Below are positions 22,519-49,116 of a DNA stretch of 64,000 bases, in pieces (the first letter of the stretch is position 1; each line of letters starts with the position of its first letter). The translations under genes were made by a program, and so were the position numbers. A model generated the notes under the pieces. That model was given only the letters and a program-made list of their open reading frames with translations. It did not search any database and had not been told where the DNA came from. Origin of the DNA: Gammaproteobacteria bacterium (GTDB lineage Bacteria; Pseudomonadota; Gammaproteobacteria; Steroidobacterales; GCA-2729495); the NCBI GenBank assembly GCA_024229935.1, contig JAAERX010000077.1, positions 124,001-188,000 on the forward strand, given 5' to 3'.

Positions 22519-23003
22519 CAAAACCTCCAGAAAAGACTCGTCCGGTTAGCATACGGCGGCAATTGTATGATGCTGCATTTTGTATTGTTGCAGCACGTTT
22601 TAATGCGGAAATTGTTGATGAGCTGGTTGCCGGCGCACGGGAGGCTCTGCTGGCAAATGGTGTAGTGGAGTCAGCAATTGAGACTGTATACGTGCCAGGT
22701 GCATTCGAAGTACCGCTGGCTGCTCAGCGAGCCGCACGTTGCCGACGTTTTGATGGCATTGTTGCTTTAGCAGCGATAGTACGTGGGGGAACCCCGCATT
22801 TTGATTACGTCTCAGCAGAAAGTATTGGAGGTCTGGGGCGTGTCGCACTTGATTGTGATATTCCGGTGGGTAATGGTGTATTGACTGTGGATACTATGCA
22901 GCAAGCGGTTGATCGTGCTGGTGGTGAGCAAGGCAATAAGGGTGCTGAGGCAGCATTGGCTGCTATCGAAATGGTACATCTGCTACGCGATCTGGGTAAC
23001 TAG
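22515..23003 (+). CDS. ribH: 6,7-dimethyl-8-ribityllumazine synthase
   Basis: RibH condenses DHBP with the ribityl-aminouracil to form lumazine. The 162-residue protein contains VPGAFEVPLAAQ, the catalytic His in GGTPHFDYVS and NGVLTVDTMQQA. The ATG overlaps the preceding stop (ATGA), so it is translationally coupled. Its stop is one base before the nusB start codon, the conserved ribH-nusB order. Confidence 0.96.
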   Translation: MTKPPEKTRPVSIRRQLYDAAFCIVAARFNAEIVDELVAGAREALLANGVVESAIETVYVPGAFEVPLAAQRAARCRRFDGIVALAAIVRGGTPHFDYVSAESIGGLGRVALDCDIPVGNGVLTVDTMQQAVDRAGGEQGNKGAEAALAAIEMVHLLRDLGN

Positions 23004-23004
23004 C

Positions 23005-23412
23005 ATGGCAGCAAAAGGCAGGCATGGGTCGCGGCGAATGCTGCTACAAGCTTTCTATCAGATGCAGGTAGCCGGACATTCAATGGATGAATTGGCAGAG
23101 CAGTTTACCAATCATCCTGAAGCAGTAACTTCAGATATGCAGTATTTCAATCAGCAGTTGTCTGCGGTGTTTGGATTGCAAGGGCAGCTTGAGATTGATA
23201 TTGCTGATTTTGGTGATATTCCACCAGATCAGCTGGATCCGACAGAGCATGCTGTTCTTTGGGTTGCACTTGCTGAGCTCAGGGTCTGTGGGGATATTCC
23301 GACCAAGGTGATTATTAATGAGGCCATAGAGCTCGCTAAGGAATTTGGTGCAGAGGGTGGTTATCGCTATATTAATGGCCTGCTTGATAAAGCTTCAGCA
23401 GAACTTCGGTAA
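23005..23412 (+). CDS. nusB: Transcription antitermination factor NusB
   Basis: NusB with NusE binds boxA RNA and supports rRNA antitermination. The 135-residue all-helical protein begins MAAKGRHGSRRMLLQAFYQ and ends with VIINEAIELAKEFG and YRYINGLLDKA, both family hallmarks. The start at 23005 follows the ribH stop by one base; an ORF reading further upstream lies inside ribH and is not real. Confidence 0.96.
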   Translation: MAAKGRHGSRRMLLQAFYQMQVAGHSMDELAEQFTNHPEAVTSDMQYFNQQLSAVFGLQGQLEIDIADFGDIPPDQLDPTEHAVLWVALAELRVCGDIPTKVIINEAIELAKEFGAEGGYRYINGLLDKASAELR

Positions 23413-23441: not shown

Positions 23442-24449
23442 GTGACAGAGCAGCCGACTATATCTGACCCGGCATCACTGCGTGAATTTTGCCTGATTGA
23501 AAAATTGTTTGCCCGGCGTGCTCGCAGCCGCTTACGAGCGGATGTCTCAATAGGTATAGGTGATGATGCTGCAGTGACACGTTTTTCACCTGACAATCCT
23601 GGTGAGGCAGATCTTGTTACTGCTACCGATATGTTGTCAGAGGGCACCCATTTTTTACCAGAGACACCAGCGCACTCAGTTGGACACCGGTGCCTTGCTG
23701 TTAATCTGAGTGATATTGCTGCTATGGGTGCTACACCATTGTGGGCCAGTATGGCATTGAGTTTGCCAGCGGTGGATGAGCAATGGCTGAATGAATTCGC
23801 CGATGGTTTTTTTGCGCTTGCGGATGTTTGTGGGGTTGAGCTTATTGGTGGCGATACAGTCCGTGGTCCCTTATCTGTAGCAGTTACAGTTCAGGGCAGT
23901 GTGCCCTGTGCTCAGGCTGTGCTGCGTTCTGGGGCGCAAACAGGTGACTTGTTATATGTGACAGGTGAGCCTGGTGCAGCTGCTGCTGGAAGACTGCTTT
24001 TAGCTGAGGCAGAAGAATTACCGGCAAGCACTCAGGCATTAGCGAATAAATTTATGTACCCCGAGCCACGGCTTCAGGTTGGGCTGGAGTTGCGGCCGTT
24101 GGTAAATGCAATGATTGATATATCCGATGGTTTGCATGCGGACCTGAAGCATCTGTTAGCTGCGAGCTCCAAAGGTGCCGCTCTTGATGTTGATAAATTA
24201 TGTTTGCATGCGGGTGTCGAATCAGGCTTTAGCAGGGCACAGGCAATTGAGTTGGCAATGTGCGGTGGTGAAGATTATGAATTGCTTTTTGCTGTTTCGC
24301 CTCGGAATGTTGCGCAGGTGCATAAGTTGGCGAAAGGGTGGTCATGCCGCCTGGCCTGTATAGGGGTTGTTACAGAATCTGCCCAGGTTGAATGGCGTCA
24401 GGGTGAAGAATCATATGCAATCCCGGATTCGGGTTACCGGCATTTTTAA
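23442..24449 (+). CDS. thiL: Thiamine-monophosphate kinase
   Basis: ThiL phosphorylates thiamine phosphate to thiamine diphosphate, the active cofactor. A member of the PurM/SelD ATP-binding superfamily, it shows GIGDDAAVT, DMLSEGTHF, AVNLSDIAAMGATP, GGDTVRG and MIDISDGL. It has 335 residues and a GTG start. The thiL-pgpA pair downstream of nusB is standard in gammaproteobacteria. Confidence 0.96.
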   Translation: MTEQPTISDPASLREFCLIEKLFARRARSRLRADVSIGIGDDAAVTRFSPDNPGEADLVTATDMLSEGTHFLPETPAHSVGHRCLAVNLSDIAAMGATPLWASMALSLPAVDEQWLNEFADGFFALADVCGVELIGGDTVRGPLSVAVTVQGSVPCAQAVLRSGAQTGDLLYVTGEPGAAAAGRLLLAEAEELPASTQALANKFMYPEPRLQVGLELRPLVNAMIDISDGLHADLKHLLAASSKGAALDVDKLCLHAGVESGFSRAQAIELAMCGGEDYELLFAVSPRNVAQVHKLAKGWSCRLACIGVVTESAQVEWRQGEESYAIPDSGYRHF

Positions 24450-24466: not shown

Positions 24467-24958
24467 TTGACACATCGTGAACTGGTAAAAAAAGTATTGT
24501 GTGATCCGCTGCACTGGCCGGCATTTGGTTTTGGTGCAGGACTAATGCCCGTAGCTCCTGGTACATGGGGGTCACTGCCTGGTGTCCTTATCTGGTGGTT
24601 ATTGCCAAAAGATATTTATCTGCAGGTGGGTGTGGCCCTGGTTGGGTTTGTGGTGGGCATTTGGCTGTGTGGTGAGAGCGCCAGGCGTATTGGTGTGCAT
24701 GACCATTCTGGTATTGTCTGGGATGAGATTGTTGGGATGTTTCTGGTGCTGATGGTTATACCCTCATTTGTACCTATGGAACCGGCATGGATATTGGCTG
24801 CATTCCTTGCTTTCAGAGTGTTTGATATATGGAAACCATGGCCGATTCGCGACCTGGATCACAGATTGCATGGGGGCCTCGGGATTATGCTCGATGACGT
24901 ATTAGCTGCTCTGTATGCCGCATTATTACTGAGTTTTTTGCATAAGCTACTTTTCTAA
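24467..24958 (+). CDS. pgpA: Phosphatidylglycerophosphatase A
   Basis: PgpA dephosphorylates phosphatidylglycerophosphate in the inner membrane to give phosphatidylglycerol. The 163-residue protein has GFGAGLMPVAPGTWGSLPG near the N-terminus, three or four hydrophobic segments and VWDEIVGMFL with the acidic residues of the active site. The start is a TTG preceded by AAGTGAG; the nearby ATG at 24462 leads straight to a stop. It follows thiL by 17 bases. Confidence 0.94.
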   Translation: MTHRELVKKVLCDPLHWPAFGFGAGLMPVAPGTWGSLPGVLIWWLLPKDIYLQVGVALVGFVVGIWLCGESARRIGVHDHSGIVWDEIVGMFLVLMVIPSFVPMEPAWILAAFLAFRVFDIWKPWPIRDLDHRLHGGLGIMLDDVLAALYAALLLSFLHKLLF

Positions 24959-24984
24959 TTACGTATAAAAACAGGTTGCGATCG

Positions 24985-26295
24985 ATGCCAATTCAAATGG
25001 CAAAAAATTCAGGTGGTCGTGCAGTGCCTGCCAAGGTTGGCAAGTACGAAATTATCAATGAAATAGGTAAAGGCACCACTGGTGATGTCTATTTGTCGCA
25101 TGATCCGTATTATGGTCGTGATGTTGCGGTTAAGGTGTATCACGCTCAGGCTGATGCAAATAGTCAGGCGGCCAATGTTGCCCGCAAGATGTTCTTCAAT
25201 GAGGCGCATATTGTAGGTATGTTGCAGCACCCGAATATTTTGCCCATCTTTGATGCGGGTCAAGAGGATGGTCATTACTATGTTGTAATGGAGCATGTGC
25301 GTGGTGCACGCACCCTGGCTTCTTATTGCAAGCCTGGCACTCTTCTGAATATCGAAGATGTCATTAAAAGTTTATATAAGTGTGCCAAGGCGCTGCATTA
25401 TGCACATGGTCGCGGTTTGATTCATCGCGATATAAAACCCAGCAATATTATGCTGACACCCGATAATGATGTGCGGATTATTGATTTTGGCATTTCACTG
25501 CTTAAGGGAGCTGATTTGTCAGTTATCCAGGGTATTGCTGGTTCACCCAGCTATATGTCTCCGGATCAGGTCCAGTCAATGGAATTAACAAAGGCATCAG
25601 ACCTGTATTCTTTGGGTGCTGTCATGTATGAAATGCTGACCGGCTTTCGTCCATTTCGTGCAGATGCACTGGCTAAGTTGCTCAACCAGATAGTATTTGC
25701 GACTCCGCCCCCTATCCATACACTACGAAATGATGTTCCAGAGGGGTTGGAAGAAATTGTTGCTCGTGCAATGCAGAAAGAACCGGAAAAGCGCTACTCA
25801 AGTGGTGCAGAGATGGCGGTCGAGTTAACACGTGTATATCAGGAATTTACCAAAGATAACCATGATGAGGTTGATCAAAAGGAACGGTTTGCCATTCTTC
25901 GCCGCCTGAATTTCTTTCATGATTTTTCACATGGTGAAATTCGTGAGTTATTACGGGGAAGTAACTGGCTGGATTTTAAAGCAGGTGAAGATATTGTCCG
26001 TGAAGGTGAATTAGACGACCATTTTTATGTCATTGTTACCGGAGAGTGTATCGTTGAGAGTAACGGCATGATGCTTGGCTCAATGGAAATGGGTGATTGT
26101 TTTGGGGAATCTGGTTATGTGAGCAGTGCCAAGCGTACTGCGACCATTAAGGCGCGCGAAAATGTTACGGTAGTCAGTATTGGGGCAACTATGCTGGAGC
26201 AGTTATCTACTGAGTGTCAGTTGCGTTTTAATAAAGTATTTCTAAGCACTTTAATTCACCGTCTACAGGGTGACGGTGAGGCTGCCGGTAGTTAA
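24985..26295 (+). CDS. Ser/Thr protein kinase with C-terminal cyclic nucleotide-binding domain
   Basis: A soluble protein of about 436 residues. The Hanks kinase domain (about 17-285) is complete: glycine loop [13 protein letters not shown] lysine, HRDIKPSN catalytic loop, DFG, the activation end SPSYMSPDQ and [14 protein letters not shown]. After a short linker comes a cNMP-binding domain (about 305-425) with [18 protein letters not shown], which keeps the Glu and Arg of the phosphate-binding cassette. The order is the reverse of eukaryotic PKG. No membrane segment. The ATG at 24985 has AGG nine bases upstream; a TTG at 24976 is an alternative. The gene follows pgpA by 26 bases and its TAA overlaps the xseB stop. 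Targets unknown. Confidence 0.9.
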
Positions 26296-26531
26296 TCTTT
26301 GCTTTCTACCGCTTTTTCGAGGTTTTTCAGGTCGCCATCAAGCAGTATTTTAACCCTCTGTTCTGCTGCACGTAGAGCCGTTTGGCAGTCACGACTTAGC
26401 TTCACGCCTTTCTCAAATTGCTTGAGGGCTTCCTCCAGAGGGATATCACCATCCTCAAGTTGCTGTACGATGGTTTCCAGTGCGGTCAGGGACTTTTCCA
26501 GGTCGGGTGCACGTTTACGGCTGGTAGTCAC
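26292..26531 (-). CDS. xseB: Exodeoxyribonuclease VII small subunit
   Basis: XseB is the small helical subunit of Exo VII, which degrades single-stranded DNA with XseA. The protein, 79 residues from the GTG at 26531, has the hallmark [19 protein letters not shown] and [12 protein letters not shown] helices. A GGAG site lies upstream of the GTG; a longer reading from 26600 adds a non-conserved leader. In relatives xseB is followed by ispA and dxs; here neither follows, because the neighbouring gene runs head-on into it. Confidence 0.93.
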
Positions 26532-26754
26532 TTTGTTTTTCTCCTGATTTTGAGGGGTTACAGAGTGTGTAAGGTTTGCATATGCCCGGGCGAGGGTCAA
26601 TTTATCTCTGCTACAGGGGCTGAGTTGGTGATATCAATGAATAATTGCATTGCATATTTCTAGAAGTCGAATATTATTCTGCTGGGTTTAGTGTTGTCTT
26701 GAGGCTGCTTTATGTGCGGTCATCTTTGTATACTTTGGAAAGGATACCTTTGTT

Positions 26755-47898: not shown

Positions 47899-49116
47899 AT
47901 GAGTATTAAGGCTATTATTATTGAGTCAAGCAAGGATTATCGATCCTTAATTTCTCATCACCTGCAGACACATTGGCCTGACTGCAAAGTGACGCAATAT
48001 GACCCGGATGAAGCGGGTCGACTTTCAGACGACTTTTCCGGAGCAGGGAATGACCTCGTTGTACTGGGTGATCCTTTAGGCGCAGAGAGCGGTCTGGATT
48101 GGTTGCGTCAGTTCAGGGGAGTTAAGGGTTTTCCTCCTGTGATCATGTTGGGTGATGGAGATATTCCAAGTATTGTTGCTGCCATTAAGTCCGGTGCAAG
48201 TGACTATATTTCACGTGCAAATGTGTCACATAAAGCCCTGATAGAAATATGTGAGGCAGCTTTGGATTCAGTTGACGCAGGAGTGGGCTCACGTTCCTCG
48301 ACAATCACAAATGGGTTTGATATTCCTGAACTTAAAGGCTTCCAGATAGAACGATGTATCTCTCGGGGGGAAATTGCATCTGTTTACTTGACCCGGGATA
48401 TGAGTAGTGGTCGTGATGTTGTATTGAAAGTCCTGCGACAGGTTCCGGATTCTGGTGGCGGTAATGTGGTTTTCGACCGGTTTTTGCGAGAATTTGATCT
48501 GATTGGCAGGATATCCCACTCTAATGTGGTCAGTATTTATAACCTGGGGATAGCGGATGATCATGCCTTTATTGCAATGGAATATTGCAGCCGTGGTAGC
48601 TTGAAACGGCGAATACGGATTGGGATGTATGCGGATCGTGCTGAAGATATTATGCGTCAGATAGCCGAAGCATTAGGTGCCATTCATGAGCTTGGGGTGC
48701 TGCATCGTGACCTCAAACCAACAAATGTTTTGTTCAGGGAAGATGAAAGCGTCGCATTAATAGATTTTGGGCTTGCCAAGCAGGCTCATCTAAAAGCGGA
48801 ACTTACAGGAACAGGGGAGATCTTTGGTACGCCATATTACATGAGCCCAGAACAAGGTCATGGTGAATCACTTGATGTGCGTTCAGACATCTACAGTTTA
48901 GGTGTTATTTTCTATGAAATGTTGACAGGCCATAAACCGTTTGAAGGCAATACTGCGATGGCTGTAATTCTCAAACATGCACGGGAGCCTATCCCGCGTT
49001 TGCCTGAACACCTATCACATTATCAGCCTGCTATTGATAAGATGATGGCAAAAAGATTGAGGCACCGTTTTCAGACAGTTAAAGAATTGCTGGAGTGGTA
49101 CCCGGCTACTGCTTGA
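47899..49116 (+). CDS. Receiver-domain / Ser/Thr protein kinase fusion
   Basis: A 405-residue soluble protein. The first ~125 residues have receiver-like folding, but the usual acidic pair is replaced by ES and the phospho-acceptor site reads VVLGDPLG, with Gly where the Asp is expected and Asp one position later, so phosphorylation is uncertain. The kinase domain (about 145-400) has a changed glycine loop (SRGEIASVY), VVLKVL, HRDLKPTN, DFGLA and TPYYMSPEQGHG, all consistent with activity. No membrane segment. It starts 14 bases after purF, so it may be cotranscribed, and its stop abuts the lpxH stop with no gap. Target unknown. Confidence 0.88.
   Translation: MSIKAIIIESSKDYRSLISHHLQTHWPDCKVTQYDPDEAGRLSDDFSGAGNDLVVLGDPLGAESGLDWLRQFRGVKGFPPVIMLGDGDIPSIVAAIKSGASDYISRANVSHKALIEICEAALDSVDAGVGSRSSTITNGFDIPELKGFQIERCISRGEIASVYLTRDMSSGRDVVLKVLRQVPDSGGGNVVFDRFLREFDLIGRISHSNVVSIYNLGIADDHAFIAMEYCSRGSLKRRIRIGMYADRAEDIMRQIAEALGAIHELGVLHRDLKPTNVLFREDESVALIDFGLAKQAHLKAELTGTGEIFGTPYYMSPEQGHGESLDVRSDIYSLGVIFYEMLTGHKPFEGNTAMAVILKHAREPIPRLPEHLSHYQPAIDKMMAKRLRHRFQTVKELLEWYPATA

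Follow-up and report, generated by a model that had tools for sequence, protein, structure and literature searches.

The cGMP-dependent protein kinases (PKG) carry two or more cyclic nucleotide-binding (CNB) domains ahead of an AGC kinase. Couplings of a kinase with a CNB domain in prokaryotic genes were known in 2012, none of them then studied at the protein level according to the portion of Taylor et al. 2012 (PMC3415842) considered here. In Kannan et al. 2007 (PMC2246266), 'kinases' of unstated kind appear in the row 'Other_bacterial' of Table 1 as domains joined to CNBs in bacteria, and histidine kinases are given a separate row. A survey of planctomycete Ser/Thr kinases includes the CNB among kinase-associated domains (PMC11032199), and the main text of a 2005 census of bacterial kinases contains neither 'cyclic nucleotide' nor 'cNMP' (PMC1262709). 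A search of the open-access literature, with subscription journals mostly outside its reach, returned no biochemical study of a bacterial kinase-CNB protein. The fusion type is already in print, and the gene described here, from a 64,000-nucleotide stretch of gammaproteobacterial DNA (the window), is a further member. Kinase and CNB lie together in one prokaryotic gene, which fits the CNB-coupled kinases of Taylor et al. and resembles those of Kannan et al. and the planctomycete survey. Unlike the present account, the portions of those works considered here name no gammaproteobacterial orthologue group, synteny or partner cyclase.

The whole fusion is encoded in a single frame, with two possible start codons, and is, as the initial annotation had described, a complete Hanks kinase followed by a CNB. 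Both domains score above their Pfam cut-offs. Coordinates are given in Table 1, and residues of the protein from the window's genome (the host protein) are numbered from the TTG start.

Table 1. Features of the kinase-CNB locus and its neighbours, in window coordinates.
Feature	Position	Strand	Remarks
nusB	22909..23412	+	Upstream; NusB 84.8 bits; true start probably later
thiL-like gene (AIRS domains)	23442..24449	+	Upstream of kinase-CNB
pgpA	24467..24958	+	Upstream; PgpA 148.3 bits; ends 26 bases before the kinase ATG
Kinase-CNB fusion gene	24976..26295	+	439 codons from TTG 24976; ATG 24985 equally possible as start
Hanks-type Ser/Thr kinase domain	25045..25803	+	Residues 24-276; Pfam Pkinase 164 bits, cut-off 31.7
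cNMP-binding domain core	25972..26205	+	Residues 333-410; cNMP_binding 54.8 bits, cut-off 27.5
Phosphate-binding cassette	26101..26151	+	Residues 376-392; Glu378, Arg387, Thr388
xseB (exonuclease VII small subunit)	26292..26600	-	Convergent, downstream; Exonuc_VII_S 71.6 bits

The kinase domain has its catalytic residues in place (Lys53, Glu76, HRD at 150-152, Asn157 and Asp170). These residues and the Pfam score mark it as a Hanks-type bacterial Ser/Thr kinase, for which phosphotransfer is predicted. The cassette pattern occurs once in a pattern search of the host protein, giving one CNB, and it holds the Glu and Arg reported earlier, which we take to be the anchors of the cyclic phosphate. 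By these two residues the CNB is of the cAMP- or cGMP-binding type, with nucleotide binding predicted. A cytoplasmic location had also been proposed, and hydropathy agrees with it: the highest 19-residue Kyte-Doolittle mean is 1.29, there is no stretch of transmembrane strength, and values above 1.6 occur in 5 of 121 homologues. The predicted structure of the fusion was of poor quality (mean pLDDT 54.1, pTM 0.35).

Among solved structures, the kinase domain is closest to StkP (3.5e-50) and PknB (9e-42), a likeness to the PknB/StkP-type kinases. It differs from the PASTA-bearing Stk1/PknB family in reaching 267 bits against a curated cut-off of 450, in lacking a transmembrane-strength stretch, and in having no PASTA match in the Pfam table. 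The best-scoring solved relatives of the CNB are PKG and PKA regulatory domains. In the PDB, its top single-domain match comes from an apicomplexan PKG (36.8 bits, E 3.5e-8); the chain-level E of 3e-28 is a sum over several domains. The fusion shares with PKG the presence of kinase and CNB in one chain and a cassette with Glu, Arg and Thr. It differs in having a single CNB that lies C-terminal to a PknB-like kinase across a short linker, and a simple pattern search after residue 276 found no AGC hydrophobic C-tail motif. The initial annotation had read the protein as PKG-like parts in reverse order. Its kinase, cassette residues, domain order and cytoplasmic location are supported, and the genome has a cyclase (below), the absence of which would have counted against that reading. 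The comparison with PKG is not supported: domain count, kinase type and the missing AGC tail motif led us to reject homology of that kind, and on sequence grounds 'PKG reversed' is an analogy only.

The intergenic distance between pgpA and the kinase ATG suggests that the two are probably transcribed together, an operon assignment drawn from spacing. The order nusB-thiL-pgpA-kinase of the window recurs in G368, which belongs to the same genus, and in G118, which belongs to a different family; G040 shows thiL-pgpA-kinase, and G017 has the kinase immediately after a thiL-like gene. We considered these neighbours as a clue to function and set them aside, since nusB-thiL-pgpA are conserved but housekeeping genes. 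Tandem kinase-CNB copies elsewhere adjoin genes for phosphoglucose isomerase and a CBS-pair protein; in two loci from other gammaproteobacteria, kinase-CNB pairs flank these two genes (L077:5766-10717, where the domains were checked, and L078:5174-10030). Within the window, a second Ser/Thr kinase gene lies at 47899-49116 on the plus strand. Its N-terminal receiver-like domain scores 22 bits where Pfam requires 30.2, and the protein is a possible response-regulator kinase fusion.

The kinase-cNMP order, which the initial annotation had suggested seeking in other bacteria, occurs at full length in at least 73 of the 369 genomes sampled from the host's class and in 35 of 182 families (182 being the highest family label in the sample), among the matches listed. 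This count was read from matches down to about E 1e-60 with at most four candidates scored per genome, so that weaker or extra copies are missed, and it includes one genome (G174) with a partial match only, over residues 117-431. Of 60 near relatives, host included, 54 carry the fusion, and some lineages have several paralogues. Among 378 Pseudomonadota genomes, again with at most four candidates scored per genome, the full-length matches listed (E <= 1e-50) are those of the host, G086, G754, G768 and G651, all of the host's class. None of 303 matching plasmid records covers 80% of the query. The fusion is widespread and its gene order conserved; it is therefore, as judged from these sequences, an old and conserved gene, probably inherited vertically.

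We aligned 121 sequences: the host protein, four others and 56 loci from the genome searches, and 60 chosen by hand from the matches listed (118 rows differ). Every one of the 121 has the kinase Lys, alpha-C Glu, HRD, Asn and DFG Asp. The stretch from kinase end to CNB start measures 29-48 residues (median 32), and because the fusion is conserved with so short an inter-domain stretch across the alignment, it is no chance or assembly join. In the CNB, all rows share Gly377, 120 of 121 have Glu378 and 103 have Arg387. Position 388 varies: T in 68 rows, S in 16, P in 10, N in 9 and other residues in 18. The Thr after the Arg, raised earlier as a possible link to cGMP-dependent kinases, is therefore no marker of cGMP. 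A Cys immediately preceding the cassette's FGE (window 26098-26100) is kept in 103 of the 121 proteins and looks like a family signature.

The 18 rows that lack Arg387 are scattered over separate parts of a quick tree, with some long branches of uncertain placement: a clade in the host's family, locus L025, a clade spanning families f53, f147 and f159, a pair in f68, and locus L161. The host-family clade comprises six loci, and all six genomes retain a cyclase-FHA gene of the kind described below; in the f53/f147/f159 clade the cassette is degenerate. These losses, together with the variation at position 388, are what one would expect if the CNB sensed a non-cyclic nucleotide or another metabolite and the kinase were not gated by cAMP. 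There is precedent for such ligands, as the relevant passages of two papers describe purine nucleosides for the CNBs of trypanosomatid PKA (PMC10959531) and haem for CooA (PMC2246266). Retention of the Glu and Arg anchors in nearly all and most rows, respectively, speaks against it, as do the cyclase and Crp of the host itself and the greater frequency of cyclases in genomes with the fusion, and we judge a non-cyclic ligand unlikely. The C-terminal helix region is conserved as well (Gln415 93%, Phe422 91%, Arg429 93%; n = 121). Read alongside the loss of Arg387 in several lineages, this would suit a CNB that serves as a ligand-independent dimerisation or docking module, with the kinase controlled by autophosphorylation alone. 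Pure dimerisation has no need of the cassette, which most rows keep, and this makes such a module distinctly improbable.

We then considered which nucleotide the host could supply. The initial annotation had recommended checking the genome for cyclases, and the genome has one PF00211 match, a cyclase-FHA fusion with both Guanylate_cyc and FHA domains above cut-off. Its gene lies at L001:1501-2406 (C76:217768-218670), outside the window and about 67 kb from the kinase-CNB gene on the same contig, and unlike the arrangement of the CNB its FHA domain belongs to a protein separate from the kinase. The host genome gave no PF01295 (class I cyclase) match and no CYTH match. PF00027, the cNMP-binding family, has five matches in four proteins: the kinase-CNB, a Crp (309 bits, curated cut-off 266), an Fnr/FixK-like regulator that stays below its cut-offs, and a twin-CNB rhodanese protein. 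The last of these (L003:1207-2250, minus strand, contig C48) has its two cNMP-binding domains ahead of the rhodanese domain and is another possible cyclic-nucleotide receptor. There are seven Pkinase matches in the genome, one of them weak, and two adjoin PP2C genes.

The cyclase-FHA proteins were aligned in 39 rows (38 loci, with the host counted twice) taken from 53 near-relative and 84 class-sample genomes with a match. D13, K53, D57 and D110 are present in 39 of 39 and R121 in 38; we presume them to be the two metal Asp, the Lys/Asp purine pair and the Arg, and we take the Lys/Asp pair as a mark of an adenylyl cyclase. The FHA core residues checked are present in all 39 rows. In class III cyclases an Asn usually precedes this Arg in the active site. 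The host has Ser117 there, and the 39 rows have Asn in 17, His in 18, Ser in 3 and Ala in 1. The host protein is thus a candidate class III adenylyl cyclase with the metal Asp, Lys/Asp and Arg residues but not the usual Asn. Because this cyclase carries the adenylyl pair and the host Crp scores above its cut-off, cAMP is a more likely ligand than cGMP. A PKG-like preference for cGMP could be argued from Thr388 in the host protein and from the apicomplexan PKG match, but that Thr is found in little more than half of the family, the adenylyl pair is present in the sole PF00211 cyclase of the host and in every aligned row, and the host has Crp; we consider cGMP a very remote prospect.

The cyclase-FHA is present in 45 of 73 genomes with the kinase-CNB and 39 of 296 without (odds ratio 10.6), and by family in 23 of 35 against 23 of 147, kinship ignored in both. 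FHA is a phosphothreonine-reading domain, for which a link to kinases in general is expected. Genomes without the fusion were divided into those with another kinase only (79 genomes, matching the kinase-CNB query at E <= 1e-40 and not listed as full-length) and those with no kinase match. With kinship ignored, the cyclase-FHA occurs in 26 of 79 and 13 of 217 of these, respectively (odds ratio 7.7), so part of the association belongs to kinases in general. Kinase-CNB genomes still exceed other-kinase genomes (45/73 against 26/79; odds ratio 3.3, p 0.0006, kinship ignored), and the 133 genomes in which PF00211 and kinase matches occur together divide 45/20/26/42 (odds ratio 3.6), likewise with kinship ignored. 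More broadly, and again ignoring kinship, any PF00211 match is found in 65 of 73 genomes with the fusion and 173 of 296 without, and a class I or class III match in 67 of 73 and 190 of 296. Class I cyclases alone have no association (20/73 against 89/296), and with no match in the host they were discarded as the cAMP source. In one genome (G087; L208:768-5216) a GAF-GAF-PAS class III cyclase gene stands about 0.7 kb from a kinase-CNB gene, in divergent orientation; this single, weak case was picked since two listed matches shared a contig.

Among the 60 near relatives, 52 have both kinase-CNB and cyclase-FHA, two the kinase only, one the cyclase only and five neither. The kinase-only genomes are 72-73% complete and the cyclase-only genome 99%. 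Four order-mates (G408, G413, G414 and G420) are without kinase-CNB, cyclase-FHA and a Crp match. This joint absence would favour a cAMP-gated kinase, and it may also reflect a general loss of signalling genes; these genomes have 0-3 kinase candidates each. A further genome (G370, 87% complete) has neither kinase-CNB nor cyclase-FHA, but Crp is present.

Six genomes from three families carry a fusion with intact Glu and Arg and have no PF00211 or PF01295 match: G118, G331 and G234 in f120, G148 and G260 in f150, and G241 (loci L128-L130, L036, L039 and L048). They count in favour of a non-cyclic ligand and against a cAMP-gated kinase. Crp above cut-off is absent from five of the six, the exception being G241. 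The CYTH family comprises class IV cyclases and triphosphatases, and each of the six genomes encodes a single CYTH protein that could belong to either group; a ligand other than cAMP and a class IV cyclase are both possible there.

Taken together, these comparisons make it reasonably probable that this soluble protein is a Ser/Thr kinase gated by the CNB at its C-terminus, most likely with cAMP as ligand. In the proposed mechanism, cAMP from the single FHA-fused PF00211 cyclase would bind the CNB, the C-terminal helices of the CNB would then move, and kinase activity would change; inhibition by the apo-CNB would probably be relieved by cAMP. Direct switching of the kinase by the nucleotide was proposed in the initial annotation and is likewise what we infer from the domain architecture. 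The predicted cyclase-FHA, its Ser117 notwithstanding, would be the likeliest source of cAMP. The catalytic residues, the cassette, the short linker and the deep conservation of the fusion all point to cAMP gating, as do a host equipped with one PF00211 cyclase and Crp and lacking a class I match, and the greater frequency of cyclases beside the fusion. Pointing the other way are the loss of Arg387, including in a host-family clade that retains the cyclase-FHA, Ser117 in the host cyclase, and the tendency of the cyclase-FHA to accompany other kinases too.

The pairing of the two proteins also suggests a reciprocal circuit, in which the phosphothreonine output of the kinase would recruit or regulate the cyclase via FHA and cAMP would set the kinase via the CNB. 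The data allow such a loop and co-occurrence hints at it, and we regard it as a speculative idea of low probability, made less likely by the occurrence of the cyclase-FHA with other kinases. Direct docking of FHA on the kinase activation loop was rejected for the host group, because Thr is absent from the host loop and present in that of only 1 of 36 near homologues (the host among them), though 80 of 121 rows overall have one. The FHA domain could still read substrates, or products of the other kinases of the genome.

The host kinase-CNB is a good test case for the question of whether bacterial kinases come under cyclic-nucleotide control. Its orthologue group is deeply conserved, and a soluble, single-CNB protein of about 440 residues should suit expression. 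A testable partner is at hand in the cyclase-FHA, and the natural Arg-less and cyclase-free variants offer controls. If the reciprocal loop were true, many Gammaproteobacteria would possess a self-contained, PKA-like loop built from different parts.
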